A stretch of DNA of 64,000 bases from Neckera pumila (taxonomy: Eukaryota > Streptophyta > Bryopsida > Hypnales > Neckeraceae), in the NCBI GenBank assembly GCA_963969595.1, contig OZ018408.1, positions 39,246,108 through 39,310,107 of the forward strand, given 5' to 3'. Shown here in pieces: positions 3,584 through 59,426 of the stretch. The notes beneath the pieces are model-generated. The model saw only the letters and a program-made list of their open reading frames with translations. It did no database searches and was not told the DNA's origin. Position numbers and translations under genes: made by a program. How positions within the stretch are numbered: the first letter of the stretch is position 1; every line of letters starts with the position of its first letter.

Positions 3584-5280
3584 TTAACCCTTAAAGGAGC
3601 AAGCTACATTTTTTGGCAACATAACAATTTTGAGCAGTTCACTACGAATAGAGTTTTTATTTTTTTTCTTTGAAAATTTTACACAACATGTGTCCGAAGA
3701 GTAGCTTTAAGGCCCAACAATTTTCATAACTTTTGACTACATAGTTACAAAGTTATTGCATGATATGTAATTTTCATTGGTTGGCGGGCAGCCCGGGCAG
3801 CTCAAAAAACTTCTTTAACCCTTAAAGCCCTGAACATGCTTTTTTGAGAACATAGCATTTTTGGGCAGCTCACTACGAGCGGAGTTTTTAATTTTTTTCT
3901 TTGAAATTTTCACACAACATTTTTCCGAGGAGTAGCTTTAAGGCCCAACAGTTTTCATAACTTTTGACTACATGATTAAAAAGTTATTGCATGATATGTC
4001 ATTTTCATTGCTCGACAGGCAGCTCGGGCAGCAAAAAAAACTTCTTTAAAAATCACTTTTTAAGAAAATAAAAATTTGAAATTAGTTCTTTAGATTTATA
4101 TGTACACGGGAAGCTTTGAATCATTCCATTTGGATTAACGAGTCAAAAGTTATGAGGATTCTTAGTTTAGGGTAGTTTATGGGTAGTTATGAAAGCTCTA
4201 CTCTAAAATAAACTTTGAAGTCCTTTATCTAACTCAATTTTCAATGTTTTTGAATAAAATAAAAAACATTGGGTGTATATTGTTTATCACAACATTACAA
4301 CAGTTGGGATTGGCATTTTTCAATTCCATAATTAAATTCTTGACAATTTAGTATTTTGAGTCATTCTCTACCTCTTCCTACTTACTATTTTTTTCCTATA
4401 TGTTGTACAATTCCAAATGATCTGAAAATTTTCAAGGATGTAGCCAACTTGCCTTGAAGAGTGAATTCAAAGAGTAACCACCATTTTGGACATTTTTTCA
4501 TACAAATGTGACCTTGTGAAGGGCAGCTGCCCGGATTTTTGCAGTGATTAAAAAGGGACTTTTGTCAATTCAAACGCTATTATCTTGCAATCTACATGGT
4601 GGAAAATTCTGAAAATTTTCCCCCATCTTCCTAAACCAATGTACTACAATATCCTATGGTTACGTGTGTTCAAAAGTTTTTTTTTTTCTAAAACTTGGTA
4701 CTTGTATTAGAAATGGCAGTTTTGGAGCGGTTTTGGTGAAAACATAGTCAAAAACTTTAGGGGTTAAAAATTATTTAAGAAATAAATAAAAATCTGAAAT
4801 TGGTTCTTTAGATTTATATAGAAGTGTGAAGCTTTGAATCATTCAATTTGGATCTATGAGTCAAAAGTTATGAGGAGTTTTAGTTTGTGGGTCGGTATGG
4901 TTTTGAAAGACTCCATACCTACCCACAAACTAAAACTCCTCATAACTTTTGACTCATAGATCCAAATTGAATGATTCAAAGCTTCACACTTCTATATAAA
5001 TCTAAAGAACCAATTTCAGATTTTTGTTTATTTTTTAAATAATTTTTAAAGAAGTTTTTTGAGCTGCCCGGGCTGCCCGCCAACCAATGAAAATTACTTA
5101 TCATGCAATAACTTTGTAACTATCTAGTTAAAAGTTATGAAAATTGTTGGGCCTTAAAGCTACTCCTTGGGCACATGTTGTGTAAAATTTTCAAAGAAAA
5201 AAAATAAAAACTCCATTTGTAGTGAGCTGCCCAAAATTGCTATGTTGCCAAAAAACGCAGCTTGGTCCTTTAGGGGTTAA
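3584..5280. mobile_element. TTAA-flanked foldback element, interrupted by a second element
   Basis: Outer element with TTAA at 3584-3587 and 5277-5280 and ends CCCTTAAAGG / CCTTTAGGGG. Apart from the insertion at 3819-4763, the left half (3588-3814 plus 4768-4899) is a near-perfect reverse complement of the right half (about 4911-5276), with only about 12 bp between the arms near 4900-4911. Without the insertion the element is about 750 bp of almost pure palindrome. No coding sequence is present. Confidence 0.85.
3815..4767. mobile_element. Complete TTAA element nested in the foldback element
   Basis: The element body 3819-4763 lies between TTAA at 3815-3818 and TTAA at 4764-4767. Its ends are CCCTTAAAGCCC and ACTTTAGGGG. 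The unfilled site is preserved in the opposite arm of the host palindrome (around 5032-5055): there 'cttctTTAAaaattatt' (reverse complement) has a single TTAA. This proves insertion into TTAA with duplication of TTAA. It belongs to the same subfamily as the copy at 6100-7033. Non-coding. Confidence 0.9.
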
Positions 5281-5879
5281 ACTCTACCTTGTGGATTTTT
5301 TCAAAGTTAAGTGGTGTAATATAGTTTATAGACTAGCTTATTTTTTGGGAGTTTGGTTTGGGTAGAGACAAAAATTTAGCCAACCAATGTGATGCTTGCC
5401 TACCTCAAAAAGGTTAGATTCAAAGTGTTCAAGGAGTAGACAAGTGTCCCATTCTTTTTTTGCTTACAAATACTACTCTCATTTTAGTGACCACTGAGCA
5501 GCTCTACCATGAATTGAAAAATGCTTGGAATGTTGTGAAATTTTACAAGTACATTTCAACCTTCTTATCTTTCATTGAGCCAAAAAAAACATCATTTTAA
5601 AATATTCTCACAAAAATATGCTCCTTCAAAGTGAGTTGCCATGTAATTCCATTGACCCAAATAAAACTTCAAGCTAAATATCTTGTAAACTATGAAGTCA
5701 AATAATCTAAATTTTTTGAGGTGCTCACTCTCAATGTGAACTTCAAGATCTTATGGGTTACATTCTATCCAATCTCAAGAAAAGATGAGTAAATAAATTT
5801 TTCCAATGCTTGGCAAGTTTTGGTCCATTTTGAAAGTACACCCTCCTTCGAAGATTGAAGGGTTATCCCTATAAAGACA

Positions 5880-6099
5880 GGTTAGTCACTGTAAAAATCA
5901 TCCTTTTTGGTACTATGGTGCAAATCATTTGCTTACAAAACAACCCAAGAGTACTTATTGGAGATCAAACTATTGTGTGAGACCTCTTCTTTTCGCACAA
6001 AATTCTGAGGATAAGCATTTTCACTTAGAACTGTCTTACATAGAAAGATCCTTTGTCATACCACTTGCGTTTGTCTACTATACAATATCCTTTACACGG
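5880..6099. repeat. Dispersed repeat F, copy 1
   Basis: A block of about 210 bp from 'ttagtcactgtaaaaatcat' to 'cttgcgtttgtctac'. Related copies lie at 28.60-28.79, 30.95-31.17 and, reversed, 32.14-32.37 kb. Shared features are the 'catcc(t)tttgg' start, 'ggaggtcaaactattgt', 'gacctcttcttttcgcacaa' and 'agaaagatcctttgtc'. It abuts the TTAA element that starts at 6100. Confidence 0.6.
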
Positions 6100-7033
6100 T
6101 TAATCCCTAAAGGACCAAACGGCATTTTTTGGCAACATATCAATTTTGGGCAGCTTACTACAGATGGAATTTTTGGTTTTTTTTCTTTGAAAATTTCACA
6201 CAATGTGTACCCAAGGAGTAGCTTTAAGGCCCAACAATTTTCAAAACTTTTGACTACATGGTTAAAAAGTTATTGGATGATATGTCATTTCAACCCTCGG
6301 CTGATAGTTCAAAAAAATTCTGAAAAATTACTTTTTAAAAAAATAAAAATTTGAAATTGGTTCTTTAGATTTATATATACATATAAAGCTTTGAATTATT
6401 CTATTTTGATTTATAAGATGAAAATTATGAGGTGTTCTAGTTTGTAGGCAGTTATAGACTCTCTACTCTAAAATAAACTTAGAAGTCCTTTATTTAATTC
6501 AATTTTTAATATTTTTTGAAAAAAATAAAAGCATAGGATGTATATTGTTTACTACAATATTACAACAATTGGAATTGATATTTTTTTATTCCATAATTAA
6601 ATTCTTAAACAATTTAGTGTTTTGAATCATTCTCTACTTCTTTCTACAACCTATTTTTTTCCTATATATTGTATAATTCCAAATGGTCTGAATTTTTTCA
6701 AGCATGTATCCAACTTGCTTTGAAGAGTGAATCCAAGGAGTAACCACCATTTTGGACAATTTTTCATTTAAATGTGACCTTGTGAAGTGCAGTTGCCCGT
6801 TTTTTCGCAGGGTCAAAAAAAGGGTTTTTGTCAATTCAAATGCAAATATCTTGCAATCTACAAGGTGGAAAATTCTGAAATTTTTTCTACATATTCTCAA
6901 CTAAGTTTACTACAAGATCCTACGGTTACATGTGTCCAAAAATGTTTTTTTTTGTGAATTTGATACTTGTACTAGAAATGGCAGTTTTGGAGTGCTTTTG
7001 GTGAAAACATAGTCTCCGACCTTTAGGGGTTAA
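6100..7033. mobile_element. Complete TTAA-family element
   Basis: TTAA at 6100-6103 and 7030-7033, ends TCCCTAAAGGACC and ACCTTTAGGGG. The body of about 930 bp matches the element at 3819-4763 ('ttttttggcaacatatcaat', 'gggcagcttactac', 'aggcccaacaattttcaaaac', 'tttgaatcattctctac'). Short open frames across it are chance; no transposase domain is visible. Confidence 0.8.
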
Positions 7034-7550
7034 TATTGGTAACCATGCTCAAAGGCTTAATATTCATTATTCTTTGCATCCAATTTTCAGTCCACCAAAT
7101 TTTTAGGTGCCGTTACCGCTAACAGACAGACGCTTTAATTGAGATACAATCATGATTCCCAAGCATCATGGTCCCCGGGGCCAAGTTTTCTACTCTAGAA
7201 TCTAGATATCATGTTGGTTGGAAGGACCCTGGCACCACATGATCCCTTGGCCGGGTACTTTGGGATACAAGCGGCCAGAGTCCCGCCAGGCATATCATAG
7301 TGCCAATCGAGACAGTGCAATGCAAATCTCATAATCTCGTCCCTTTTCGGAACCTCATTCCAGCTTTTAATTCCCATGCAGGGCATGACCCGGCAATTGC
7401 ACTGGACTAGTGGATCTTTCGGTGGATTTGAGCCAGAGAGAATGTTCATTGGGTTTGTCACTCCGGAGGATTTGAAGTCAACTTAGGCAGCCGGCAGCAT
7501 GCCCGGCATTACCCATTGCGTACTACGACAAACCATGGAAATACAACCCT
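7034..7550. other. More GC-rich unique segment, no recognised gene
   Basis: Base composition is clearly richer in G and C than the flanks. A minus-strand open frame at 7195-7461 reads about 88 codons, but it resembles no family I know and has no upstream or downstream exon support. It could be a captured gene fragment or an old transposon. Confidence 0.35.
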
Positions 7551-7806
7551 TTAGGTTGCCCCAGACTAATATCTCAACATTCAACTATATCAATATCTGA
7601 GTTACTGTGGAAGGATGCAAAGATGTGGGGAAACATGTGTGCTACATGGGTTGGTACACTGACTCATGGCTCGGAATCAGAGAATGACTTTTGCCTCCAT
7701 CTGGACAAGCCATGAGTCATGAGGTAACATGAGGTAACTTCTCTGGGGTAAGGCAACCTAATTGTCAAGGCAACCTAATTGTCAAGGCAACCCAATTGCA
7801 CTATTT
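7551..7806. mobile_element. Decayed copy of the TA-flanked GGTTGCC element
   Basis: Similar, in reverse orientation, to the element at 50993-51525. Shared blocks are 'ggttgccccagactaatat', 'tatcaatatctgagttact', 'ccatgagtcatgaggtaa' and the end 'cccaattgcactatttagta'. The right end is preserved and the left terminus is eroded. A 16-17 bp unit 'caaggcaacctaattgt' is repeated three times just inside the right end (about 7750-7798). Confidence 0.6.
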
Positions 7807-8315
7807 AGTATAGATTTGTTCAACATTTCAGGACAAATGGAGGGAGGTAGAGAGGTGAATGCCATGGAGTACTGATTATTATGGTCTCTCGGGGTCCATC
7901 CTCGATGGGTATGCCGGGATACCTTACCCAACAAAGTTCGCCGTCCATGGGAATATGGCCCAATTGCAACCCAATTGCGAGTGATTTGCGTATCTAGATT
8001 TGCCCAACATTTCAGGACAGATGGGAGATAAATAGGTGAATGCAATGGAGTTCTTGATTATTACGGAGTAGTTTATTACGGTCTCGGGGTCCATCCTTGA
8101 GGGGTATGCCAGGATACCTTACCCGAATTTCTTCATCCATGGGAATACGGCCCAATTGCATCTTAATTGCAAGTGAGTTGCATATCCAGATTTGCCCAAC
8201 ATTTCAGGACATATGGAGATAGAGAATTGAATGCAATGGAGCACTTGATTATTATGGTCTCCAGTTCATCCTCGAGCCGGGATACCTTACCTGACAAAGT
8301 CCGTCGCTCATTGGT
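7807..8315. repeat. Tandem repeat, about 190-bp unit, 2.7 copies
   Basis: Three head-to-tail units begin near 7806, 7996 and 8189. Each opens with 'tagatttg(c/t)(c/t)caacatttcagg', followed by 'tgaatgcaatggag', 'attattatggtctc', 'ggggtccatcc' and 'gggataccttacc'. The third unit is truncated. The units differ by substitutions and small indels (for example an extra 'ggagtagtttatta' in unit 2), so the array is old. Confidence 0.75.
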
Positions 8316-8648
8316 TCAGCCGCGTTGCCCGCATCTTCTCTGAATTGCCTACAGGTCCCTTTTGGCAGTACCGGTACACCATATCTGCAAAATTCCATGC
8401 AGTTGGAAGGCTTGGAAGCCCTTTCATATGGGTTGGGGCACTTTCTCATGGGCGGCAGCCTTTCTTGTACCATTTTTCAGTTGTTTCGTACCATTTTTCG
8501 ATTTTTTTTCTTCCTTCTGTGCAGTTGCCATGACAAACTTTTGGTTTGGTGAAGGTACTGAAGGTACTTCAATTAGTGCGCCGCTTGTAGAGATACCATG
8601 ATTGATTTTTACTAAATTTTGGTTTTGGAAATTTGTGGATTTGGGAAG

Positions 8649-8988
8649 CACACTAAGGGAGGAGGTCCATAAAGCGCTCACTTAAGAGCTGAAACTGAAT
8701 TTTGGGGAGGTGAAACTTCTTGAAATATTTTTTAGTAAATTTTCCTTCAAAGACAAATGAAATTGCCATCCAATCCAAGTCGTTTCATATTTTTTTGGAG
8801 CTTTGTGGAATTAGTTATGAATTTTTGAAGTTCAAATTTTTGACGCTTCGGAGGGCTCTAAAATCGCCCACCTCCTCAAATGTTCATAGCTTGTACATTG
8901 CAAAAAGCAACATGTACAAGCAATGAACATTGAGGAGGTAGGTGATTTTAGAGCCCGAACGGTTTAAGAACCTCCTCCCTTAGTGTGT
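8649..8988. mobile_element. Foldback element with CACACTAAGGGAGGAGGT ends
   Basis: Left end CACACTAAGGGAGGAGGT near 8653 and right end ACCTCCTCCCTTAGTGTG near 8970 are inverted. A second, inner inverted pair ('gctctaaaatcgcccacctc', about 8851, against 'gaggtaggtgattttagagc', about 8955) closes into a long hairpin around 8900. A possible short target duplication 'ggaag' lies on both sides. No coding sequence. The class is uncertain: the ends contain CACTA, but this is not enough to call an En/Spm element. Confidence 0.6.
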
Positions 8989-11304: not shown

Positions 11305-14300
11305 CTATTCACGTGATTTTGTTAGGTTGATGAGCTTGGAGTACGCCCCGTCCTCCTTCGTTATCAATGTACTGTGAGTCCCTTTCTCTACTATCTGTCC
11401 ATCTCGCACCACAGCTATGGTATCGGCATTTCTGATTGTGGACAACCTGTACGCACAGAAAGATATTTGCTGAATATTTGTTTATAAAGGACACAAAAAG
11501 AGGTCGAACACAACAACGAAACTCTGCAGTGAACTAAAAAAACGTCACGTTCTCATATACGACGAAGCTCTGCATTAGGATGTTCGTCATGTCTGCATGA
11601 ACAATGGCGACTAGATAGTGTGATTCCGCAAAAAAGGGGAATTCTTATATTCTGTGAATGAAGAGCTCTATATGTGAAATGTAGGGTAAGCTATTTGGTT
11701 GTGTAGCTTATCCTGTGTAAGGAACTGAGGAAATTGCACCACTTGGAGCTCAAGACTTGGCTTACGCTGGTTTGAACTACATGCAGTGGCTCGTAACAGT
11801 TTATAATCTTCAAACTTATTCCTTTGACCAAACCATGTTAGCGACAATAACAAATACCTACGAAGGAAATATAGTGGATTGGGTCCCGCAATTTCTGGGG
11901 AGGTTGCTAGGTGTTGTATAGAATATTATGTACGCTTTGGATAACATTCTTTCACTCATATGAGTGACGTTATGCCTGGTAAGCGTCACTCAAAATACAT
12001 TGGCGCAATTTCCGGAGTTCTTACGTACCTGTGAGCAATGAGGACAGTAGTACGGCCATGCATGAGCTTGTCCAGAGCCTCCTGAACAATCTCCTCAGAC
12101 TGTGAATCCAATGCGCTTGTTGCCTCGTCCAACAGCAAGATAGCTGGATCCTTGAGCACAGCCCTGGCTATAGCCACTCTTTGTTTCTGTCCTCCAGAGA
12201 GCTGTAACCCCCGCTCCCCAACCTCTGTTTTGTACCCGTTTGGCAAAGAGCAGATAAAGTTGTGAGCGTTTGCAGCCTTGGCAGCTTCCACAACCTCTGC
12301 ATCCGAAGCACCGTCCCGGCCATACAAGATGTTCTCATGAATCGTGGTTGCAAACAACGCAGGCTCTTGCTGGACAAGGGCAATGTGACGGCGCAGGGAG
12401 CGCAACCTAAGCTTCTTGATGTCATGGCCGTCAATCTTGACCTTTCCTGATGTGGGATCATAAAATCTTGCAATAAGAGCAATGACTGAGCTCTTTCCTG
12501 CAACACATGCAACACAAAAAATAAGGCAAACCGACAATATATTCTTCAAAACAATATCTTAAGTGCTGCCAGAGTACTTGAACCCAGCAGAGAACTTCAA
12601 ATGGAGCTAGGAAATCCCTAAAAAATTCCTCATCAATGAATCCATGAAGCAGGAAATGAAAGACAGACAAACAACCTGAGCCACTGGCACCAACTAATGC
12701 AAGACTCCTCCCCGCGTGCACATTCAGGCTAAAATCCTTGAATATGACCGTGTCAGGTCTAGAGGGGTATGAAAAGTGGACATGACTCAGGCTTATGTCG
12801 CCTCGCATCTCCAGCACTTCTTGAGCATCTGGGTTTGTTGGATCGATTTCCGTCTCCCGGTCTAAAATACTGAAAATAGATTTCAAAGCCTGCACAGCTA
12901 GTAAACCGTCAGAATTTCGAAGAAGCCATTCGGTGAATGCAGCATTCACAGACGGAGAGCTGTGATGGATACACAACAAACCCATGCTCTAACGCAACTA
13001 AAATGATCCCTCTGAAAACCGTCCAAAGAGAATTGTCAACAAGAAGGTGAAAATAAGGTAGAGGTTTCTAAACCGTTATAGACCTGATCCCATCTCCTAT
13101 ACTGACCCTTTTTACCAACAGGAACTCATATCTTCCAGTCAACACTTGGTTGGCCTTCTATTAGCAAGTGAATTGGCTCCATGTCCATGATCACTGATCT
13201 TTGAATGGACATGGAATTTTCTACCGCCCCTCTAATAGTGGTCTACAACCACTCATTGGGATGGTTTAATAAGAAACCCATGCATGATGATAAAAATATG
13301 ATCTCAACATGTTGGGCTATTTTACACAAGGCTCTCTCCACACCTCTACAGATCTCCCAAAATCACTCCTAGTGTGAAGCAAATAGTATCCACTACTATA
13401 CCAGACATCCTGACACATCATAATAAATGAAAATGGTGGATCAATACCTGAGAGCCTTTCAAGATGTCCGGGGCCATAGTGAGGGACTCGGCCAGCATGA
13501 CAGCAGTAACAACGAGCACGATGAAAGTGCGAATAATGTTAGAAAAGTCGTCAAATCCGCCATGGGTGACCAGTGTGGAGGAGTACCACATGGCCAGTCC
13601 ATAGGAGCTGAAAATTAAGAACTGTGACAGGCCATAGCCCAGGCCAGCCAAGTGGCCTCGAAGAAAAGCGCGGCGCTTGGGCAAGGCGAGCTCCCGAATG
13701 AATAGGTCCAGCACTTTCTCCTCCGCACAGAAGGCTGCCACCGTGCGGATGTTGCTCACGGCCTCCGTGGCCACCATGCTGGCTCTTGCGTACGCCTTGC
13801 CTACGTCTCCCCCAAATCCTTTCAGGAAATGATGCTGCATACAACATCCATCGTTGCTGATCAATTTGATTATTTGTAATTACTCAAAAAATACAAGATT
13901 TTACTACACATATTAATTCACTTAGTGCCAAGAGAAAAAAAAATCGAAAACTTCAATGACTTCGGAGCAAAGAAGATACTCCCTTCTTCTCCTAGTAGCC
14001 ACTAAACAAACAAAAATCAAATGATTTCCGGGAAAAAACTGCAATGTAAAACAGGAAGTGTATCTCTCACTAATTGAATTAACTTGAGTAGGTTTCTCGG
14101 ATTCATGACATTCGAAAAAGGTATAATGTTACTCTGAGGTATGAGTTCATTTTATTGACCCCGTTTAGTTTGTATTTTAGAGAACCCGGAGGAGGAAACC
14201 CAGCGTACACCCGGATTTATCATGCTTGACGTCATTCTGTGAGGTTGAATGAGAGTTTCTTAAAGTCGTTGAGAGAAGCATGTAGTTACCTCACCGATAA

Positions 14301-17300: not shown

Positions 17301-20300
17301 TATAATCCACTATTAGATTCCAAAATGGACTTTCAGCTTGGGCACTTACAAGTGGACAATTAAATACCTGGAGTGTCTGGTCGTGATACCGGGAGTATCG
17401 TTTCGGATGTGATTGCCTAACCACGGAGATCTTTCCGTTATTGTGTCTTTTGAAGAGTCTTTTAAAGAGTCTGAGCGCTGCATTCGCACTAACTCGGCAT
17501 AAGCTCCTCCATTGCCTTTTCCTACAAGGAAAGAATTCTCAGAAGCTGGCGCTCAGCAGAAGATCACCATTAGAATTGGATGCTTCCTAAAGGATCAACT
17601 TTCAAGAAAATATTTGCCAAGGGATTGCACTAGGACATCAAAATTTGAAAAAAGAAAATTCATTGAGCTTCCATGGGGTTAAAAAGGTACCCATTTACAA
17701 GTGCCATCTAAACACTTGACTTGCAAGAAATGAGATCAACTTCGAAGTTCTATCATAGTCAAAGATGCTTCCAAGAGATACATCGTAGATGCAATACTCA
17801 TGGTTCGAGGATAGTCTAGGCTTGTGATTGAAACCCTACTCCGTCAAACTTCAACAATACCTAACTTATTCATACAGTATCCAAATAATAAGAATTTTCG
17901 TGTGTTAGAATCCTCTCAAAATGGGGACAAGATCCAAATAAAAATAAAAGTAAACATTCGATAATAGAAACCACTCAAAGCAGATGAAAGCCACAGGACA
18001 GCGTGCACTACCTTGCCAGCAACTGCGAAAACGAAGTACGAAGTAAATGAGGAAGAGTGGATACCAAGGAGCTCATTGTGGGTGCCAGATTCAATGACTT
18101 CCCCGTTCTGCACCACGAAGATGGCATTGGCATTGCGAATCGTTGACAGGCGATGGGCGACCACCACAGTGGTCCGGCCAATCATGAGCCTGTCCAAGGC
18201 CTCTTGCACCAGCTGCTCCGAATTCGCATCCAAGGCGCTCGTGGCTTCGTCCAGGAGCAGAATGGCCGGGTTTTTCAACATGGCCCTAGCAATGGCCACT
18301 CGCTGCTTCTGCCCTCCAGACAGCTGCACTCCTCTCTCCCCCACCTGCGTGTCGTACCTCTGGGGAAGCTTGTCGATGAACGAATGTGCGTTGGAAGCTT
18401 TCGCCATGGCTGTTACTTCTGCTGTTGATGCTCCATCTTTACCATACAGGATGTTCTCTAGTATGCTTGTTGCAAACAACGCCGGTTCCTGGTTCACTAA
18501 TCCGATTTTCCCTCGAAGCCAACTCAGCTGCAATGCCTTGATGTTGTGACCGTCCACTAACACCTCACCTGCACTATACATGATGTCAGTCAGACAAATT
18601 CTCTATGAATCCGAAAGGATACCCGCCAGAAGGAAATCCCGAAGACGTGGCACCATAGGGCTTTGAGTTCGGTACTTCCCCATAGGGCTTTCTGAGCATT
18701 AAGAGGTTAAAGATGAGTTAGAGAAACCGTTGCTGACAGAAGGGAAGATGTAATACCTGCGGTAGGGTCATAAAAGCGCTCAATCAAGGAGATGATGGTC
18801 GATTTTCCAGATCCGCTGCTTCCAACAATGGCAGCCGCGGTGCCAGCAGGAATGGAAAGGTGGAACCTGTCGAAAATCTTCACGTTGGGTCGAGACGGAT
18901 AGCTGAAGCTGATGTCACGAAGCTCAATGTGACCCGCCACGTGAGGTAGGATTCGGCCTTCAGCACTGCGCCTGCAATCCCGCAACTGCTTCCTCTCAAT
19001 GACTTGCATGATATGGAGCCCCGCTGCTGTACCCTTGGCAAAGACATGAAGATTTGGTGCCATCTGGCCGAGTGACCTGCAAGTTCAAACAAGAGAACCT
19101 CGACATTAAGAGGAAGCTGCACACAGGCTGCAAAATCTCCAATACACCAAAATGCATAGTATTTTTCATGCCTGAAGCAGGCGACAGTCGACATTGTAGA
19201 TGGAATAATTCCATATTGAGTACTACTATCAGTAGATTTAGAATTCAAGATTACAGATCCAGTTACACTTCAATAAAAAAACAACTACTGAGAATAATGG
19301 GGAGCGTTGCAGAATCCCTTCCCACTGGTCTAGAATGTCAACTTGTCAAGTGTGCAAACGTGGCACTCCGTCCTTAAGTTTCGTTGGTTGTTCGGAAAAC
19401 TTAATTGTTTTGGAGCATACTATGCTGACAGACTCTAATGATAACACATACAATGTAGATCTAATGTAGAAAAGGAGGGTTAGGTTGTTTTCTTACAGGC
19501 CACTGACAACCGCGTTGATAATAGTGGTGAAAGCCTGCCCACCGTCGGAGTGCTTGCGCAACACCAAGAGACTGGCATACCAAAACAACAAACCCCATAC
19601 ACCGATGAGAAGACCATGGGTTAAGCCGACGCTCAAGCCCTTGGCAATCCCTGCTCGCTTAGCCATATCGAGTGTTCTGTGCAAAGCTCTGCTGTAAGCT
19701 TGTTGTGTTTTCACCTCCCCTACAAACGAGTAAACGGTCCGCACTTGAGCAATTGCCTGTACACAGTCCCAGTCATGATGACGCATTAAAGGAAATTCCA
19801 TAGTCATTTGGCTTTCAAGACTCTTAGTTCCCTGAACTCACTATTACACAACCTCGAGATAATTTTGGTTTTGCACGATGACAAATGTACTACATTACCA
19901 TACATAACTTCTTGGCATAGACTTTAAATCTTAACGTTTTGGCACATGGATGATTAACTTCTTGGATGATGGAACAAATTTCATAGTTTTCTTCTAATGT
20001 GCTTCAGAATTCAAGTTCAAAATGAGGGGTAGACAGGTCACAGTTAGATACTGGTACATTTGGCAGATTGATATGACGCTGGAAAGAGACTGCTTCTGTA
20101 TATCGTTTGACTATAACCTTGAGCTATCTGTCACCGACCTTCTACATTTAGGTCTTGACCAACACATACAATGTTCTTGATTCTGGTGATATGAAATTTG
20201 GCATCATCTCAGTTGTATTAATTCATTCAAATTTGTCGTTTTCTAACCAAGATTGTTGGTCCTGTTGGGGTCAACCAATGCAGTTATTGGTTTCGAGCAA

Positions 20301-30943: not shown

Positions 30944-32366
30944 GTTTAATCCTTGAATGCTGAGCTGGTGACCGTGGAATTCATCTCTTTTGGCATTGCA
31001 TGACATCATCTTCTATGAAAAAAAACAAAAAGTGCCCACTGGAGGTCAAACTACTATTTATGATCTCTTTTCACAATAAAATTTTAAGGATGAATAGTTA
31101 CACTTTTATCCTACACAAAAAGATTCTTTATCATTCATCTACCAAAAAATGATTGCAGTGTTGTTTATGGGTTAACCCTTAACCACTAAAGGACCAAGTA
31201 TCCATTCAACATATGCAAAAAATCTCGGGTAGGTTCCCACGAAGTCTTTTTTTGCTGGATGTTCATGAAATTTGGAGACAATGTGTAAACAAGTACCTTG
31301 GTGATAAACTAATTTCTTTTCCGATCCGATGCCCAAATCAAACGTTATGCTGCCCTGAACTTTTAGGGCAGCTCGGGCAATTTGAGAATCTTTTGGGAAT
31401 CTTTTGCAAAAAAGATCATCAACTTGAGAAATTTGGCACGGATGTAACTAATAAAATATGACATGTAATTGTCTAAAGAAAAATAAATTTTAGTTCTCAA
31501 ATCACATTCTAAGAGGAGTCAAACTTTGTTAGCTAAGTTGAGGCGGTTTGAAGAAAAAAACATTTTCTTCTAACTTCAAGGCCTATTATCTTGCAATCTA
31601 TGAAGTCAAAATTCTTGAAATTTTTCTACATATTCCAAATGTTTGCTTCTAACTTTTCACCATTTAGATTTCGAATAAAAAAATTTCCCATTGCACAAGA
31701 AATCATTAAACAATGACTAGTGTATTGCCAATTCACTTAACCTCTTTGCATAGCAGGGTGATTTTGTGTAAGCTAGACATTTAAGTTGCCTCTAAAATTT
31801 TTAATGAGTGAAGCTAACATCATACACTTATGAACAGCCAAAATCCTCATATTTGTGTAGAACAAAAAATTTTAGTCCAAGAGGGCCCAAAGTCTGCTAA
31901 CCCTATTTCGCAGGAATGAAATTTTTTTATTTTTCACACTTAAAACATTATGATCTTTCAATCTGCGTGGTCAAATGGGCTAAAATTTTTTCCGCATTCT
32001 AGTTAACTTTACTTCAATTTTGTACAGTAAAAGTTTCAAAAAAAATTACAATTTTCATTTTTTGAATAACATATCCAAAAATCGCAGTTTTTGACAATGT
32101 CTCCTTGGAAAAAAAAACTCGTTTCGTAGGGGTTAAACGTTGAGGCGGATGTTTTGCGGCCAATGAATGACAAGAGACTCTCCTGTGTAAGATAGAAGTG
32201 CAACTATTCATTCTCAAAATTTTGTTGTGAAAAAGGGAGGTCTCTTACAATAGTTTGACCTCAAGTGAGTACTTTTTGCTATTTCTTAAGCCAATGATTC
32301 ACACGGTTAGTAATGGAAAGGGATGATGATTTTCCAGAATCACCCGTTTGTCCTTTAAGGGTTCAA
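30944..32366. mobile_element. Repeat F inverted pair forming a larger foldback, split by a TTAA element
   Basis: The left arm (about 30945-31178) and right arm (about 32137-32366) are diverged reverse complements ('ggaggtcaaactactattta' / 'gaggtcaaactattgtaaga' on the complementary strand; 'aggatgaatagttacac' / 'gagaatgaatagttgcac'). The outer ends read TTAATCCTTGAATG and, reversed, TTGAACCCTTAAAGGAC, like eroded TTAA-family termini. The element at 31179-32136 sits between the arms. Confidence 0.6.
31179..32136. mobile_element. Complete TTAA-family element between the F arms
   Basis: TTAA at 31179-31182 and 32133-32136, ends CCACTAAAGGACC and CGTAGGGG. Interior blocks 'tctcgggtaggttccca', 'aacgttatgctgccctgaac', 'ttgcaatctatgaagtcaaa' relate it to the main subfamily, but it is more diverged. 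No coding capacity. Confidence 0.7.
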
Positions 32367-35016: not shown

Positions 35017-35959
35017 TTAACCCCTAAAGTTCTATGACTATGTTTTCATTGAAAATGCTCAAAAATTGTCATTTTTAGAACAAGTACCAAGTTTTTGAAA
35101 AAAAAAACTTTTTTGACACATCTAACCGTAGGATCTTGTAGTATGCTGACTTAAAAACATGTGGTAAAAGTTTTAGAAATTTCCACCATGTGGATTGCAA
35201 GATATAAGCATTTGAATTGACAAAATTCCTTTTTTTGTCCCAGCAAAAAAATCAGGCAGCTGCTCTTCACAAGCTTACTTTTCTAGGAAAATATGTCCAT
35301 AATGGTGGTGCTGCTTTGGATTCTTTTTCCTAGACAAGTTGTCTACATGCTTAAAAAATTTCAGATCATTTGGAATTGTACAACATATAGGAAAAAATAG
35401 TAAGTAGATAGTAGTAGAGAATGATTTAAAATACTAAATTGTTAAGAATTGAATTATGGAATTGAAAAATGCCAATCCCAATGGTTGCAATAAACATCAC
35501 AGGATGTTGTAATAAACAATCTTCATCCTATGATTTTATTTTTTTCAAAAAATATTGAAAATTGAATAAGATAAAGGACTTCAAAGTTTATTTTCGAGTA
35601 GAGAATCCAAAACTAGCTGCAACCAAAAAATCCTCATAACTTTTGACTCATTGATCAAAATGGAATGATTTAAAGCTTTCCAAATATATAATTCTAGAAA
35701 ATCAATTTCAAATTTTTGTTTTGAAAAAAGTTTTTTTTTAATCTACCCGGACTGCCTAGTTACAAAAAAGAGTAACATATTAGGCCATAACTTTTGACTT
35801 ATATTTCCAAATGTCATGAAACTTGGTGCATATGAAAGGCATTCCTTGCCCCCACTTGCTATCACAATTTGGCCCCAAAATATGGAATCTCTAGTCAAAA
35901 GTACCTGCCCAAAAATTCTGTACGGCCAAAAAACGCATGTTGGTCCTTTAGGGGTTAAA
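35017..35959. mobile_element. Complete TTAA-family element
   Basis: TTAA at 35017-35020 and 35956-35959, ends CCCCTAAAGTTC and GGTCCTTTAGGGG. It is in the opposite orientation to the related copies at 3819-4763 and 6100-7033. The interior keeps 'tttggaattgtacaacatat', 'gtagagaatgatttaaaata' and 'cataacttttgactca'. Non-coding. Confidence 0.85.
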
Positions 35960-36305: not shown

Positions 36306-37236
36306 TTAACCCCTAAAAGCCCAAGTGTCCATTCAACGGACAAATGGGATTTCGGGTAGGTACCTACGGGCTGAAATTTTGTCCTGATTTTTTGAAACAT
36401 TTTTAGAAGATAGAAAAACTGATAAGCTTTGTGGGAGTATAATTTTTTTTTCAATCGGTGCCCGGGAAAAAAAGTTATGCCCAAATAAGCTCAAAACAGG
36501 GGAGAGCAGGCAGCAAAAAAATTTTTGCAAAAAATAATTTTTTTTTTTTTGAATTTTTTTCCCATAGATTATGTTTTTGTCTATCTAGAAATCTTTGATT
36601 CATTTCATTTGGATTTGTTATGAGAAAGTTATGGACATTCTTGTTTTTCGGGCAGTTAGAGCATCTTTTTGAAAAAATATCTTGTAGGACTCATTTTTTA
36701 ATGCAATTTTTCAAATTTTTCAAAATTTTTTTTTGGCATGGTTTAGTTTACTTGCTAGAACACTCTCACCATTGGGATTAGTGCATTTTAATTCCATCTA
36801 AAATATATGAATATTTTAGATTTTCCTTCTATCTCATACTTAATTCTACTTAACAATTTTTTTAATAATGAAAATTAAGTTTTCTTGAATTTTATTTTTT
36901 TTCCCTAGACTCTCAACTCAATTCTCCACTATAAAGATTTAAAGCTCAAAACGCTGTAGTGCAAAAATTTTAAGTTAAAAGTGTTTAAAGTCAAAAAATC
37001 TGGTCCCGCAATGTACTGAAAATCTTGTTTTTTCCACTTTAAACGCAGATATCTTGCAATCTGTGCGGTCAAAAACTCTGAAATTTTTCCACACATTCTC
37101 ATACTAGTTAGCTGTAAGATCCGATGGTTAGATGTGCAAAAAAAACATTTTTAATTTTTTTTTCACTCTTTGCTAAAAAAATGGCAGTTTTGGGTGTTTT
37201 TTGGTAGAAAAAAGGCCTTGGGCCTTTAGGGGTTAA
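36306..37236. mobile_element. Complete TTAA-family element, main subfamily
   Basis: TTAA at 36306-36309 and 37233-37236, ends CCCCTAAAAGCCC and GGGCCTTTAGGGG. The subterminal palindrome here is GTCC-attcaac-GGAC (about 36327-36341). The interior has 'caatcggtgcccggga', 'gttatggacattcttg' and 'atatcttgcaatctgtgcgg'. Non-coding. Confidence 0.85.
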
Positions 37237-41549: not shown

Positions 41550-41820
41550 GCAAACCTCTTTGGTCAACCCTTGGAGTTCCAAGGCTTTTTTTTCATCAAA
41601 TACCACTCAAAAATACCATTTCTAATGCAAAGAGAAACTAAATTAAATTTTGCATATCTAACTATAGGATATTGCACTAGACTAGTATAGGAATATGTAG
41701 AAATTAATTCAGAAACTTTGATTGTTGAGAATAGCAAAATATTAGCATTTAAAGTGAAGAAAACATGAGATTTTGCACTTTCCTAGACGAGATTGTAAGA
41801 TTTTGAATCTTCTTCACTTA
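41550..41820. mobile_element. TTAA-family fragment (reverse orientation, interior end missing)
   Basis: Resembles the left part of the copies at 9534 and 49860: 'ccaaggctttttttt', 'ccactcaaaaataccatttc', 'gcaaagag', 'atatctaactataggat'. The TTAA terminus is eroded ('cctctttggtcaacc'). Confidence 0.45.
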
Positions 41821-41822
41821 TA

Positions 41823-42245
41823 TTAACCTCCTAAAGTTCAAAAGTCCCCTCAAGGGACACTCAAAGGGATTTTGGATAGGCTCATGTGACCTCAATTTTT
41901 AATACGGTTTATTAAACTTTTGAAGATAAGAAAACGCAATAGTTTATGGGAATGTGATTTTTATTTCAATTGGTGCATGGCAGCAAAAATTATGCCACCT
42001 CAGCTCAAAAAGCAATTCAACGGCAACCAAAAAAATCTACAAAAGACTTGAAATACAAAAGAAACTAAATTTTTTTCTCATAGATTATCTTTGTTTTGAA
42101 CATGAATAGCTTTGATTCATTCCACTTGGATTAGTGTTGTGAAATTTATGCGTCGTGGTAATCATTGCATCTTCTCGAGAAAATAATGTATTGGATTCAT
42201 TTTTTAACCCAATTTTTACAATTTAAAAAAGGTATATGATTTTTC
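41823..42245. mobile_element. TTAA-family element, left part, truncated on the right
   Basis: TTAA (41823-41826) and CCTCCTAAAG, a subterminal palindrome GTCCC-ctcaa-GGGAC, then 'tttggataggctcatgtgac', 'caattggtgcatggcagc' and 'aatagctttgattcattcca'. Homology stops near 42245, where a TA-flanked element starts. Confidence 0.6.
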
Positions 42246-45545: not shown

Positions 45546-46478
45546 TTAACCCCTAAAGGACCATTGTCCCTTTCGAGGACAAATGGGAATTTCAAGTAGG
45601 TACCTATAAGCTAAAATTTTGTCTTAATTTTTTGAAACTTTTTGAAACAATAGAAAATTGATTAGCTTTGTGAGAGTATAATTTTTTTTTTCAATCAATG
45701 CCTTGGAATAAAAGTTATGCCCCCAAATAGCTCGAAACTTGGAAGAAGGGAGAGGGGGCAGCAAAAAAAATTCAAAAATTTGAATTTATTTATTTATATT
45801 TTTTTCTTATAGATTATATTTTTGTCTACTTGGAAAGCTTTGATTCATTCCATTTGGATTTATTATAAGAAAGTTATGGACAATCTTGTTTTTTGGACAA
45901 TTAGAGCATCTTCTTGAAAAAATAACTTGTAAGAATCATTTCTGAATGCAAATTTTTACAATTTTAAGAAAAAAAATTGACATGGTTCAGTTTGCTTGCT
46001 AGAAAAATCTCACCATTGTAATTATTTCATTTTATTTCTATTTTAGAGATATTAATAATTTAGATTTCCTTTGATCTTGTACCTATTTCTACTTAACAAT
46101 TTTTTGAAGTATTAAAAATAATTTTCTTTTGAATTTTTCTTCCCCTAGAATCTCAACTCAATTCTCAACCATAAAGATTTAAAATTTCTAAACTCTGTAG
46201 TGCAAAGAATTAAAGTTAAGAAGGTTCAAAGTCAAATAATCTAGTCCCGCTATGTGTTGAAAAACTGGGTTTTTTTCACTTTAAATGCAGATATCTTGAA
46301 ATCTATGAGGTCAAAAATTTTGAAATTTTTTCCACACCTTCTCATACTAGTTAGGTGTAAGATCCTATGATTCGGTGTGCAAAAGAAACAATTTTCAAAT
46401 TTTCTTATTCTTTACTATAGAAATGGCAATTTTGAATCTTTTTTGGCAGAAAAAAGGCCTTGGTCCTTTAGGGGGTAA
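45546..46478. mobile_element. TTAA-family element, right TTAA mutated to GTAA
   Basis: TTAA at 45546-45549; the right end reads GGTCCTTTAGGGG then GTAA (46475-46478). The left subterminal palindrome is imperfect (GTCCCtttcgaGGAC). The interior matches the copies at 36306 and 52304. Non-coding. Confidence 0.8.
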
Positions 46479-46904: not shown

Positions 46905-47706
46905 ATATGTTTTTGATATATACAGATATTTGATGTTATTTAGAATTTTTATTTTATGAATTGACTTTCATATGCACTAAATTTCACGACATTTGGAAAT
47001 ATGAACAAAAAATTATGGCCTAATATGTTTATTTTTTTGTAAATAGGTAGTCCGGGCAAATAAGAAAAAATTACTTTTCTAAAAGAAGAAGTTGAAATTG
47101 GTTTTCTAGAGTTGTATATACATGGAAAGCTTTGAATCATTCTATTTTGATCAATGAGTCAAAATTTATGAGGATTTTTTGTTTGCGGGCAGATGTGGAT
47201 TCTCTACTCTAAAATTAACTTTGAAATCTTTTATCTTACTCATTTTTCAATATATTTTGGAAAAATTTTCCAAAATATAATTATAAATTATAATTTGGAC
47301 AATTTTTCCAAAAGTTATTGGCCTCCAAAGTTTGCAGCTAGTCACCGCAGATTCGTCCGATTCGTCCGTGAACAGCAAAATTCTGTCCGATATGACAACC
47401 GTGATCCATTGGGATTGGCATTTTGGAATTCCAAAACTAAATTATTATTAGTATTTTCAATCATTCTCTACTATTGTCTACTTACTATTTTTTTCCTATA
47501 TGGTGTACAATTCCAAATTTTTAAGAAAAATTTTAAGCATGTGGCCAACTTGTCAGAAAAAAGGAATCCACAGAAGCACGACCATTTTGGACATTTTTTC
47601 ATACAAAAGTGAGCTTGTGAAGTGAGCTGCCCTATTTTATGTAAGGCCAAAAAAATGATTTCAGTGAATTTGAATACTTATATCTTGTAATCCATGTGGT
47701 GAAGCC
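46905..47706. mobile_element. TTAA-family fragment lacking both termini
   Basis: Homologous to the interior of the 6100-7033 type: 'agctttgaatcattctattt', 'tcatgaggattt..', 'ctactctaaaattaactttg', 'tcctatatggtgtacaattc', 'gaccattttggacattttt'. A block of about 70 bp at 47335-47405 ('cgtccgattcgtccgtgaac') has no counterpart in the other copies and is probably inserted. Confidence 0.55.
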
Positions 47707-49530: not shown

Positions 49531-49539
49531 GATCATGGA

Positions 49540-49859: not shown

Positions 49860-50759
49860 TTAACCCCTAAAGGCCCAAGGCCTTTTTTTTGCCAAAAAAC
49901 ACTCAAAACTGCCATTTCTATAGCAAAGAGTAAAAAAATTTGAAAATTGTTTTTTTGTATATGTAACTGTAGGATCTTACACCTAACTAGTATGAGAATG
50001 TGTGGAAAAAATTTCAGAATTTTTGACCATATAGATTGCAAGATATCTGTGTTTAAAGTGAAAAAAACAAGTTTTTCAACACATTGTGCGACTAGATTTG
50101 ATGACTTTGAACATTTTTAACTTAAATTCTTTGCACTACAGAGTTTTGAGCTTTAAATCTTTATAGTAGGAAATTGAGTTGAGAATCTAGGTGAAAAAAA
50201 AATCTAAAAAAACTTAATTTTCATTACTAAATAAAATTGTTAAGTAGAAGTAGGTACAAGATAGAAGGAAAATCTAATATTAATATCCTTTATATGGAGT
50301 TAAAAAGCACTAATCCCAATGGTGAGATTGTTCTAGCAAAATAAAATAAAATTGTGGAACTTTTTTATTTGAAAAATTGTTAAAATTGTATTCAGAAATG
50401 AATCCTACAAGTTATTTTTTTAGGAAGATGCTCTAAGTGTTCGAAAAACAAGATTGTCCATAACTTTCTCATAAAAAATCCAAATGAAACGAATCAAAGC
50501 TTCCCAGATAGACAAAATTAAAAAAAAATATAATAATAATAATAATTTTGTTGCCCTCCATCCCCTGTTTTGAGCATATTTGGGCATAATTTTTTTTCCC
50601 GGGCATAATTTTTTGATTGTAATATATATTCCTACAAAGCTTAGCAGTTTTTCTATCTTCCAAACAAATTTTGGAAAATCACAACAAAATTTCAGCCATA
50701 GGTACTTGCCCAAAATCCCATTTGTCCCCTCGAAGGGACAATGGGCCTTTAGGGGTTAA
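49860..50759. mobile_element. Complete TTAA-family element (reverse orientation)
   Basis: TTAA at 49860-49863 and 50756-50759, ends CCCCTAAAGGCCC and GGGCCTTTAGGGG (perfect 13-bp inverted repeat). The subterminal palindrome GTCCCctcgaaGGGAC lies at the right end. Same subfamily as 9534, 36306, 45546 and 52304. Non-coding. Confidence 0.88.
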
Positions 50760-50992
50760 TGTAAACTACGTTTTGAGTTGCTTGTTGAGTTTTTTTATTA
50801 ATGGCACGATTATAGTTCCATGTCTTTCAATTCTAGCACCTTGGGAGGGGGAGCTTTTGAATATGGCTGCTCCTTTTGAAGGTTGTCTATGAACAATTTT
50901 AATCATTCTACTTTCAAAACTTTTGGTACCCCTACAGTGGTCTTATATTTGCCAGAATCAGAAAATTGATTGTAATGCATATCTTCTTTCTC

Positions 50993-52303: not shown

Positions 52304-53234
52304 TTAACCCCTAAAAGCCTGTTGTCCCTTCGAGGGATAAATGCGTTTTTGGGCAGGTACCTAAGGGCTGGATGTTCTCTTCATTTTTTTGAAACTTTTT
52401 TGGGAGGTAGAAAAGTTGATTAGCTTTGTGGGAATATAATTTTTTTACACAATCGGTGCCCAGGAACAAAAGTTATGACCAAATTAGCTCAAAGTAGGGG
52501 ACGGCGGGCAGCAAAAAAAAATTGCACTTTTATTTTTATTTTTTTTATTAGTATTTTTTTTCTCATAGATTATATTTTTTTCTATCTAAAAAGCTTTGAT
52601 TCATTTCATTTCAATTTGTTATGAGAAAGTTATGGACATTCTTGTTTTTTGGGCAATTAGAGCATCTTTTTGAAAAGAATAACTTATAGGATTCATTTCT
52701 GAATGCAATTTTCCAAATTTTTCAAATTTTTTTTTCCATGGTTTAGTTTACTTGCTAGAACAATCTCACCATTGGGATTAGTAAATTTTAATTCCATCTA
52801 AAATATATGAATATTTTAGATTTTTCTTCTATCTCGTACCTACTTCTACTTAATAATTTTTTTAATAATGAAAATTAAGTTTTTTTGATTTTTTTTTTGG
52901 AGGGTAGATTATCAACTCAATTCTCCAATATAAACACCTAAAGTTCAAAACTCTGTAGTGTAAAAGTTTTAAGTTAAAAATGTTCAAAGTCAAAAAATCC
53001 AGTTCCACAATGTGCTGAAAAATTTGTTTTTTCACTTTAAACATTGATATCTTGCAATCTGTGCGGTCAATAATTCTGAAATTTTTTCCACACATTCTCA
53101 TACTGGTTAAGTGTAAGATCCTATGCTTAGATGTGCAGAAAAAAGTTTTTAATTTTTTTTCACTCTTTGCTAAAAAAAATGGCAGTTTTGGGTGTTTTTT
53201 GGCCAAAAAAAGGCCTTGGGCCTTTAGGGGTTAA
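52304..53234. mobile_element. Complete TTAA-family element, main subfamily
   Basis: TTAA at 52304-52307 and 53231-53234, ends CCCCTAAAAGCCT and GGGCCTTTAGGGG. The subterminal palindrome is GTCCCttcgaGGGA. Close to the copy at 36306-37236 throughout. Non-coding. Confidence 0.87.
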
Positions 53235-54377: not shown

Positions 54378-54822
54378 TAAGGTAAACGAGCCCATTGTGG
54401 TCAAAATTAGGAGTCTACCCTCATGTTGTTGCTGAAAATTTTCAAATGTTTTCCCACACGAAGACAAGTGTGAGAGAAAGTGAGGATATTTGAAATTACA
54501 TTTTTTGGACCAAGTATGAATTAGTTCTGAATTTCTGAAGTGATCTGTCCAAAAGAGTCAGTAGACTACCCCATAACCAACAAAAAGTGTATCCAATATG
54601 CTCTTCTTAATCACCTAAAGTGGTCACAATAATTTCTAATGTAGAAGGTCATAAAAAGTCACTTCCTACAATGATTTACACTGAAAAAGCAGGTGTTTCT
54701 AATGAGGTCACTAATCACTCCATTGGTGTCAGGTTAGACATTGATTGTGGCCAAAAAAACTGTCATGGGGTCATTAGGTGTCCACTATGGGTCATCTGAC
54801 CACAATGGGCTCGTCTACCTTA
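54378..54822. mobile_element. 445-bp TA-flanked element with 24-bp inverted ends
   Basis: TA (54378-54379) and AGGTAAACGAGCCCATTGTG then GTCA at the left. The right end, reversed, is TA, AGGTAGACGAGCCCATTGTG, GTCA (TA at 54821-54822). There is one mismatch in 24 bp. No second copy in the window and no coding sequence. TA duplication points to the Tc1/mariner group, but the ends are not Stowaway-like. Confidence 0.75.
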
Positions 54823-55023
54823 CCTCCATTTGGAAGAACATATTAATATTCAATAGCCTTCACACAAGTTGCCTTTTTCCCTCTTGAGTCCTCATCACAA
54901 ACTTCATTCAAGGTAAAAACTAGGAAGAAAAGCCAAATGAGAGAACTGAATCAATAAATTACAAACTAAGTTAGTATAGAAGTCAGACCTAAATCAACAT
55001 TAACAACAAATGAGGGGCATTAC

Positions 55024-55950
55024 TTAACCCCTAAAGGCCCAGAGTCCCCTCGGGGACACTTGGGATTTTAGGCAGGCTCGTGTGACCTGAAATTTTGGCC
55101 TGATTTTTTTTTAAATTTTTTGAAGATAGGGAATCACATTAGCTTTCTAAAAATATAGTTATTTTTTCAATCGGTGCCCGGGAGCAAAAGTTATGCCACC
55201 CGAAGTCAAAAAAGCAACTCGCCGGACAGGAAAGAAAAACTGTAAATTTTTTATTTTTATTTTTTATTACTCCTTCTCAAAGATCATGTTTTTTTTCTAT
55301 ATTTGAAGCTTTGATTCATTCTATTTGGACTCAGAATGAGAAAGTTATAGACAATCTTGTTTTTTCGGGCAATCTAGCATCTTCTTCAAAAAACAACTTA
55401 TAGAATTCATTTTTTAATGCAGCTTTCAATTTTTTTCAATTTCATTTTTTTGAAAAGTTTAAGTTTGTTTGCAAGAACAATCCCACCATTGGGATTATGG
55501 TGTTTTAATTCCACCTAAGAGCTATTAAAGATTTAGTATTTCATTCAATTTGGACCTATTTCTACTTAACAATTTTTTTATATGTGAAAATCAAGTTTTG
55601 ACATTCTGAAATTTTCTTCCCTAACTCTCTACTCAAATGTTCAAGACAAAGAAATTTAACCCAATGGTATGTAGTGCAAAAAAAATCTACAAATGGCCAT
55701 CAAAGTCATCTGAAGTTGTAGGCAACAGTTCAAAAAAACTTCTTTTTCCAACTTCAAATGCTTATATCTTCCAATCCATACGGTCAAACTTCATGAAAAT
55801 TTTAACACATGATCTAAGACAAATGAAGTACAAGATCCTATAGTTAGATTCTAAAAAGAAAGTAATTTCGGTTTCTTGAATGATCGCAGCAGAAATGGCA
55901 GTTTTCAGTGATTTCGGAGCCAGAAAATGCCTTCGGTATTTAGGGGTTAA
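55024..55950. mobile_element. Complete TTAA-family element, subfamily with GTGACCTGAAATTTTGG
   Basis: TTAA at 55024-55027 and 55947-55950, ends CCCCTAAAGGCCC and ATTTAGGGG. The subterminal palindrome is GTCCCctcgGGGAC. The interior has 'caatcggtgcccgggagc', 'cgaagtcaaaaaagcaactc' and 'gtgatttcggagccagaaaa'. Closest relative is 58228-59133. Confidence 0.85.
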
Positions 55951-57500: not shown

Positions 57501-57760
57501 TTTGGAAGGTTGCAAATTTGGACACCCCTCGGTGCAATTAAAGAGGAAATGAAATTATTATTTATTTATTTTTAATTTTAATTTAGCATTTGATGTGCCA
57601 CATCAACAAAATGTCAAATTTTACTATTTCTAAATTATTTTTTTATTTTTTAAGTTATTTTTAAAAAAAAAGTTTAAATATATATATATTTTTTGTACTT
57701 GCATTGCGGAGGGCCGAAAAATGAAAGCTTAACGGCCTTCCCAAGGGTTCAAATTTTTCT
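57500..57760. repeat. Diverged GACGTGGCA-type repeat, copy at 57.6 kb
   Basis: 'gatgtgccacatcaac' lies in AT-rich DNA flanked by 'cggtgcaattaaagagg' and 'cttgcattgcggagggcc'. It parallels the organisation at 29.83-29.96 kb. Also contains a short (AT)n tract near 57678. Confidence 0.45.
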
Positions 57761-58227
57761 TACAACTAGAAATTCAATGTATTAAACAATCCAAATACCA
57801 CCAAATTTGTATGTATTTCATTATTTTGTATTTTCTTCTTTAAAAATGATTTTCAAGTTTGCTTTACAACTGATTATTGTTTTTCCTTTTGAACTTCATT
57901 TTTGATCAAATCTCAAATACACATTTTTTTTACTGTTGTATGTGTCAATTCATGCACCTTGTATCTCATAATACACAAAAGACACTCATGTTGCAATCCA
58001 AATTGGACTTTTAAAACCTTTACTCCCTTAGTTAGCACTCTTACGTTCAAAATCTGGACAATGAATAGAAAGGTTCCAAAGTCTTTTTTGCCTACAGAAC
58101 TTTTCATTCCTCAAAACTGATGCTTCATGTATAATGAATTTAATGGAATTGAGGTAAGTAATATTATATTTATAGAGATATAAGCGCAAATATAAGAAAA
58201 TTCAAGAAAGGATTCACGTGTAAGGGA
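57761..58227. other. AT-rich intergenic DNA
   Basis: No gene. A plus and a minus frame overlap at 57902-58120, which suggests chance open reading. Confidence 0.45.
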
Positions 58228-59133
58228 TTAATCCCTAAAGGCCCAAAGTTCCCTCAGGGGACACTTGGGATTTTGGACAAGCTCATGTGACCTGAAATTT
58301 TGGGCTGATTTTTGGAAACTTTTTTGGAAGATAAGGAATCACATTAGCTTTCTAAAAATATATATTTTTTTCAATCGATGCCTGGGAGCAAAAGTTATGC
58401 CATTCAAAGTCAAAAAAGCAACTCGCTGGCAGAAAATAAAAACTGTAAATTTTTTTTTTTTCTTTAAAATTTTTTTTTCTCAAAGATCATGTTTTTGTCT
58501 ACATTTGAAGCTTTTATTGGACTCATAATAAGAAAGGTATAGACAATCTTGTTTTTCAGGCAATCTAGCATCTTCTTTAAAAAACAACATACAAAATTCA
58601 TTTTTGAATGCAAATTTCAAATTTTTTCAATTTAAAAAAAAAGAAAAGTTCAAGCTTGTTTGCAAGAACAATCCCATGGTTGGGATTATGGTGTTTTAAT
58701 TCCACCTAAGTGCTATTAATGATTTAGTGTTTCATTCAATTTTGGACCTACTTCTACTTGACAATTTTTTTATATGTGAAAATCAAATTTTGATACTCTG
58801 AAATTTTTTCCCAACTCTCAACTCAAATGATCAACATAAAAAAATTTAACCCAATGGTATCTAGTGCAAGAAAAATCTACAATGGCCGTCAAAGTCATCT
58901 GAAATTGCAAGCCACAGTTCAAAAAAACTTCTTTTCCCAACTTCAAATGCTAGTATCTTCCAATCCGTTCGGTCAAACTTCATGAAAATTTTTTACATAT
59001 TTGAAGACAAGTGAAGTACAAGATCCTATGGTTAGATTCTAAAAAAAAATTACTTTTTTGGTTTCTTGAGTGATCGCAGCAGAAATGACAGTTTTCAGAG
59101 GTTTCGGAGCCAAAAAATGCCTTGGGCCTTTAA
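58228..59133. mobile_element. TTAA-family element with eroded right end
   Basis: TTAA at 58228-58231 with TCCCTAAAGGCCC. The right end reads GGGCCTTTAA with the AGGGG lost. The interior is nearly collinear with 55024-55950. The subterminal palindrome is TCCCtcaGGGGA. Confidence 0.75.
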
Positions 59134-59139
59134 TTTCAT

Positions 59140-59426
59140 ATTTTTTTGGTGACCTTAATTTCATAATTGACTTGTGAAAAGAAGATTGAAAGACTTAAAA
59201 TCATTTTCACAATTTTAACACCCTCACGATCAAACATTATAATCTTTCAATCCATAAGTGATATGGTTGTGTTTTCTCTTCATATGGGATCTCTAATATG
59301 TCTAGTTTGAATTTTTTTGGTTACAATTCAAAAAAAATTGATACAACTTATCAAAACGTTGTCCTTTTGTTCATTTAGAGCAAATTCGAAGAAGCTCAAA
59401 AAAGGCCTTCAGTACTTAGAGGTTAA
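59140..59426. mobile_element. TTAA-family end fragment, subfamily D
   Basis: Ends TACTTAGAGG then TTAA (59423-59426). Shares 'aatccataagtgatatggtt', 'gtgttttctcttcatatggg' and 'caacttatcaaaacgttg' with 29170-29556. It abuts the preceding element. Confidence 0.5.

Follow-up and report, generated by a model that had tools for sequence, protein, structure and literature searches.

Non-coding TTAA-bounded elements of a moss-like plant share their ends with transposase-bearing piggyBac elements of the same genome

Introduction

Which transposon superfamily do the short TTAA-bounded repeats scattered along a 64,000-base stretch of a moss-like plant genome (positions 39246108-39310107 of its contig; hereafter the window) belong to, and what moved them? 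An earlier note, made from the letters of the window, had listed twelve copies and described them as non-coding elements with piggyBac-like ends. Terminal inverted repeats of the piggyBac superfamily begin with CCC or CCY; Kolobok and Sola3 are other users of TTAA. The usual miniature inverted-repeat transposable elements (MITEs) of plants are Tourist (PIF/Harbinger) and Stowaway (Tc1/mariner), both non-autonomous with AT-rich targets, the latter producing a 2-bp TA duplication. Knowledge of piggyBac, a major genome-engineering tool, comes mostly from animals. We conclude, with a probability of about 95%, that the window copies of this moss-like plant are MITEs, non-autonomous members of the piggyBac superfamily. 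The direct observations behind this conclusion are the ends, the TTAA, an empty site, the ends common to a transposase-bearing element (L016) and conserved aspartates in transposases.

Results

Copies in the window

The family is real. An end resembling TTAACCCCTAAAGG is present at all twelve listed starts (0-2 mismatches), one of which, given as 9534, should read 9533. Counted at <=1 mismatch, both end types together number 22 in the window, against a mean of 0.03 in simulated sequences (n = 100, first-order); at <=3 mismatches there are 20 TTAACCCCTAAAGG-like and 18 CCTTTAGGGGTTAA-like sites. The CCCCTAAAGG ends are inverted termini beginning CCC, and a few window ends begin TCCC instead. 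Features are listed below, + being the orientation of copy 36306, with its CCATTGTCC-type end at the left, and a dot standing for no strand; L009 and L016 are transposase-bearing elements described further on.

43-922, +, MITE copy; left end unrecognised, lying at the window start or outside it; right end CCTTTAGGAG-TTAA
3584-5280,., near-palindrome of 748 bp once the insert is taken out; TTAA at both ends
3815-4767, +, MITE that interrupts the palindrome's left arm; TTAA at both ends; unmatched by L009 and L016 in BLAST at E 1e-5
5046-5049,., lone TTAA marking the empty site, in the palindrome's right arm
6100-7033, +, MITE; TTAA at both ends; one end resembles L009/L016
9533-10157, -, MITE with a shorter interior (625 bp in all); TTAA at both ends
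31179-32365, +, diverged candidate copy, weak; right end TTCA; family alignment only at 31554-31635 and 31926-31996
35017-35958, -, MITE; TTAA at both ends
36306-37236, +, MITE; TTAA at both ends; 93% identity to L034, elsewhere on the contig
41566-42230,., family fragment or fragments
45546-46478, +, MITE flanked on the right by GTAA; left and right 14-bp ends identical to those of L016
46962-47265, +, family fragment
47406-47701, +, family fragment
49860-50759, -, MITE; TTAA at both ends
52304-53234, +, MITE; TTAA at both ends
55024-55950, +, MITE; TTAA at both ends
58228-59132, +, MITE; final right-end bases lost

TTAA at both ends, claimed for every copy, holds for nine of the twelve; the right end is damaged or missing in 31179 (TTCA), 45546 (GTAA) and 58228 (end lost). 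Sound copies (n = 9) span 900-953 bp, close to the 0.9-0.95 kb given for most of them, with 9533 (625 bp) and 3584 (a 748-bp near-palindrome with an insert) as exceptions. Other pieces of the family occur at 43-922, 41566-42230, 46962-47265 and 47406-47701. With nine copies as BLAST queries, 131 matches cover 12,023 of the 64,000 window bases, and the same queries had no match in the reversed window. The longest stop-to-stop frames are 53-122 amino acids (24 copies measured, six of them from the window); the six measured window copies therefore encode no transposase, as had been stated. The window contains no Rfam match at the gathering score.

A filled and an empty target site

Copy 3584 is a near-palindrome whose left arm is broken by the insert 3815-4767 and whose right arm is intact. 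The insert is flanked by CTTCT-TTAA on the left and TTAA-AAATT on the right, and the intact arm reads CTTCT-TTAA-AAATT. A filled site thus lies beside an empty one with a single TTAA. The two have four bases in common, not eight, which does not fit the 8-bp target duplication of hAT elements. TTAA being palindromic, a 2-bp TA duplication by an element with ends A...T would leave identical letters. The empty site therefore supports TTAA targeting and by itself leaves the superfamily unfixed; TTAA plus CCC termini, which the earlier note called the piggyBac signature, would likewise be no proof on their own.

Genome-wide abundance

The assembly comprises 339.5 Mb in 18 contigs. At <=2 mismatches, the end TTAACCCCTAAAGGNCCAAGGCC has 12,944 matches in it, and the reversed pattern has none. 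TTAA flanks the exact core, at the one end considered, in 2,109 of 2,430 cases (87%), so the widespread absence of TTAA that the note had named as evidence to the contrary is not what the genome displays. For the 20 exact cores that head the list on the contig of the window, TTAA adjoins the sampled end in 18 cases; an opposite end (<=3 mismatches) lies 856-1132 bp away in 19, of which 18 finish in TTAA. At ~0.93 kb per copy, the matches would amount to an estimated ~12 Mb, or 3.5% of the genome, a figure that counts only one end type and may include fragments and relatives. Pairwise identity among 24 MITEs (without window copies 3584, 3815, 6100, 35017, 58228 and 31179) is 64-93%, with a median of 81%, and sampled copies stand ~12% from their consensus.

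piggyBac transposases and full-length elements

A search of the assembly with the PF13843 profile (DDE_Tnp_1_7) yielded 116 scored matches from 872 candidates, all 116 above the curated cut-off (best E 4.6e-80); none was found in 14 control genomes. We picked 20 of the 116 loci and examined them as 10-kb stretches, which revealed ends; eight loci viewed with 1.5-kb flanks had shown no such ends. In 13 of the 20, a TTAA-bounded pair of ends surrounds the domain, 5.0-7.3 kb apart. Each pair is the best-scoring one among TTAA sites, and those of L011, L023 and L026 agree in just 10-11 of 16 bases; L023 and L026 are backed by end-to-end alignment, L011 lacks such backing, and the left end of L021 could be either of two. 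The 10-kb stretches of the remaining seven loci (L010, L015, L018, L019, L022, L024 and L025) contain no convincing pair.

One element, L016, is 7,300 bp long (1589-8888), with TTAACCCCTAAAGGACCA at both termini and a PF13843 frame between them (E 3.2e-76); its terminal 14 bp, CCCCTAAAGGACCA, form an identical pair. L009 (1981-7614; PF13843 E 2.1e-81 inside the terminal pair) has an end that departs from that of L016 at one of the ten bases that follow TTAA. The remaining complete elements carry other ends, that of L020 beginning TCCC. Read from the first ATG, the frames measure 671 amino acids in L016, 638 in L009, 987 in L014, 942 in both L023 and L026, and 653 in L017. Those of L016 and L009 are uninterrupted; several others, including L013 and L020, are interrupted. 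The frames scanned (L014, L026, L016, L009 and L017) cover the profile from positions 4-11 to 347-349 of 349. In L014 (2843-5806) and L026 (2966-5794) ~460-505 amino acids precede the domain, with no Pfam match at E 0.01. Compared with solved transposases, L016 matches the moth protein 6x67 (E 4.3e-26) and piggyBat 9c0f (E 3.4e-25). Its Asp 380, 471, 589 and 592 are invariant in all six aligned proteins and align with aspartates of 6x67 that we take to be the catalytic residues.

Ends common to the MITEs and the transposase-bearing elements

The 14-bp end of L016 occurs exactly at five of 24 window ends (3584 right, 9533 right, 35017 right and 45546 both) and, at <=1 mismatch, at 13 of them. 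Of eleven window copies compared by BLAST, nine have a match to L016, L009 or both that lies at an end or close to it (68-91% identity, 32-267 bp); five of the eleven (9533, 36306, 45546, 49860 and 55024) match one of the two at both ends. Counting matches that extend to the end or almost to it, the CCAAGGCC-type end aligns over 54-267 bp (68-85% identity) and the CCATTGTCC-type end over 32-101 bp (72-91%). A hairpin around TTGTCCC...GGGACAA lies in the CCATTGTCC-type end of L009, L016 and five of seven window copies examined, being absent from 36306 and 58228. The end kinds are swapped between the two elements: the CCAAGGC-type end lies downstream of the transposase in L009 and upstream in L016.

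Since PF13843 transposases occur in this genome and one element, L016, has the ends of the window copies, we regard the superfamily assignment as settled. The check proposed in the note, a search for a transposase gene flanked by the same ends, thus had a positive outcome, and the piggyBac assignment itself stands, L009 also having these ends and the common subterminal sequence. The ends might instead be owned by another DDE superfamily, Tc1/mariner with TA or PIF/Harbinger with TTA/TAA, the transposase of L016 being there by coincidence. The empty site is equally compatible with a TA duplication, and the genome contains matches to the PIF/Harbinger profile PF13359 (402 candidates, 150 of them scored). 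However, none of the eight best of these 150 loci has such ends within 1.5 kb at <=2 mismatches, L016 and L009 carry the ends at both termini of complete piggyBac elements, and TTAA adjoins 87% of exact cores. In addition, the sampled transposases adjoining CCCCTAAAG-type ends (L009, L010, L016, L018 and L022) form one subclade (SH-aLRT 97) in a quick tree with a midpoint root and long-branch warnings. Searches covered PIF/Harbinger but not Tc1/mariner, hAT, Kolobok or Sola3 transposases, and on this evidence we consider an owner from another superfamily very improbable.

Some observations sit less easily with a piggyBac origin of the window copies. L010, L018 and L022 have no recognised left end within their 10-kb stretches, and BLAST links copies 3584 and 3815 to neither L009 nor L016. 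The central part of the MITE consensus is unmatched inside the L009 and L016 elements, so the direct parent element was not found; matches of the consensus filler elsewhere in these two loci are adjoining MITEs. The nearest relative of each sampled MITE is just 68-93% identical, from which we take the sampled copies to be old.

Relatives of the transposases

In the same tree, the 20 sampled transposases and 20 environmental or assembly proteins form one 40-row clade (SH-aLRT 100), within which those of this genome are not a single group; three named animal proteins fall outside. No named plant protein was among the matches listed in two transposase protein searches (51 at E 1e-3; 70 at E 1e-20, from 7,992 candidates). 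The five relatives from named organisms among the matches listed are all animals, as would be expected if the sequences came not from the plant but from a contaminant such as an invertebrate living on the moss. Against this, the copies sit on a 52.8-Mb contig among ABC-transporter and EF-hand frames, and the end type is present thousands of times in the assembly. The named proteins most similar to the EF-hand protein at 60031-60672 come from the mosses Ceratodon purpureus (66%) and Physcomitrium patens (61%), besides an unnamed match at 96%; on this single protein we base the view that the host is probably a moss. We give contamination practically no weight.

Mobility

Identity among the complete elements L013, L014 and L020 is 98.8-98.9%; their flanks and TTAA sites differ, and the whole 987-amino-acid frame is found only in L014. 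L023 and L026 are 98.7% identical, differ in their flanks and both have the 942-amino-acid frame. Near-identical elements at different TTAA sites point to recent movement in these two lineages, neither of which is the one bearing the ends of the window copies. Some full-length relatives look still able to move.

The window copies themselves could be immobile relics whose own transposase is dead, a possibility compatible with their piggyBac origin. The ~12% distance of sampled MITEs from their consensus fits it. The uninterrupted frames of L016 and L009, and the near-identical complete copies in two further lineages within their clade (L023/L026 and L013/L014/L020), speak against it. We lean slightly away from this possibility, and it deserves to be taken seriously; the putative enzyme for the window's ends may be active or dead.

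Other observations

Transposase-bearing elements in three loci sit exactly at a TTAA adjoining the end of an older element (L013:1980, L014:1946 and L021:2412); possibly the elements prefer such sites.

Tandem arrays with 349-bp and 173-bp units begin at the TTAA or CTAA of a piggyBac end (L010:7397-10000; L018:7394-8094 and 8197-8787; L022:7353-9445). The 349-bp unit contains a ~58-bp hairpin and has a relative within L016 (69% over 183 bp). We considered a novel arrangement and set it aside: because part of the unit has a relative inside L016, insertion of an element into another's array would be the simpler account.

Many of the PF13359 matches in this genome have open frames; with 150 of them scored, other DNA transposons are also plentiful here.

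Five reading frames of the window were assigned, two to ABC transporters and three to EF-hand proteins. The ABC-transporter exon frames (PF00005), at 11986-12558 and 17916-18602 on the - strand, are part of one or two genes.

Discussion

Each window copy would consist of two transposon ends (~14-bp inverted repeats with subterminal sequence) flanking non-coding filler. A piggyBac transposase supplied by full-length relatives in the same genome would recognise these ends, excise the copy and insert it at TTAA, leaving TTAA on both sides. We infer from the sequence that an L016-type transposase moved the window copies; by analogy, the chemistry is presumably that of animal piggyBac.

Insect piggyBac MITEs are short, non-coding and TTAA-bounded, with ends in common with autonomous copies. 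The present copies resemble them in being short, non-coding and TTAA-bounded and in sharing ends with a transposase-bearing element, and differ in their plant host, ~0.93-kb length and two distinct subterminal ends, one usually with a hairpin. With the type element of the cabbage looper (transposase 6x67), the present elements have in common the TTAA target, CCC ends, one uninterrupted DDE_Tnp_1_7 frame and four aligned aspartates; they differ in the moss-like host and in the ~460-505 amino acids preceding the domain in L014 and L026. They are also larger, at 5.0-7.3 kb against the 2.4 kb given in a review (PMC2874221). Tourist and Stowaway resemble the present copies in their non-autonomous life style and AT-rich targets, whereas target duplications and transposases differ, the duplication of Tourist being a 3-bp TTA/TAA (PMC10004981).

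The earlier note is too strong in denying piggyBac an established place in land-plant genomes. Reviews name plants among the hosts of piggyBac-like elements, without detail (PMC2874221, PMC8086355). PiggyBac appears among angiosperm MITE superfamilies in PMC10004981, and a fern repeat table has 1,230 PiggyBac annotations amounting to 122 kb, again without detail (PMC6890710). In a Niphotrichum paper the term occurs just as "piggybacking" (PMC10619864). In the literature searched, mostly open-access, we found no account of piggyBac, or of such an expansion, in a moss; earlier plant reports may exist. The kind of element is itself known. What is new is the scale and completeness in a moss-like genome, where MITEs occur together with transposase-bearing elements that match them and with relatives that moved recently.

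The present elements show where these MITEs originate, and they suggest that plant repeat annotation may classify such elements as unknown. A plant genome with copies in the thousands, several lineages of transposase and full-length elements that are nearly identical would offer natural plant-adapted ends and enzymes. At what we judge to be even odds, mosses may have a deep piggyBac branch of their own that is still mobile and is marked by large elements and long N-terminal extensions; through MITEs this branch would have shaped a few percent of the present genome, and it might provide a native tool for gene delivery in plants.

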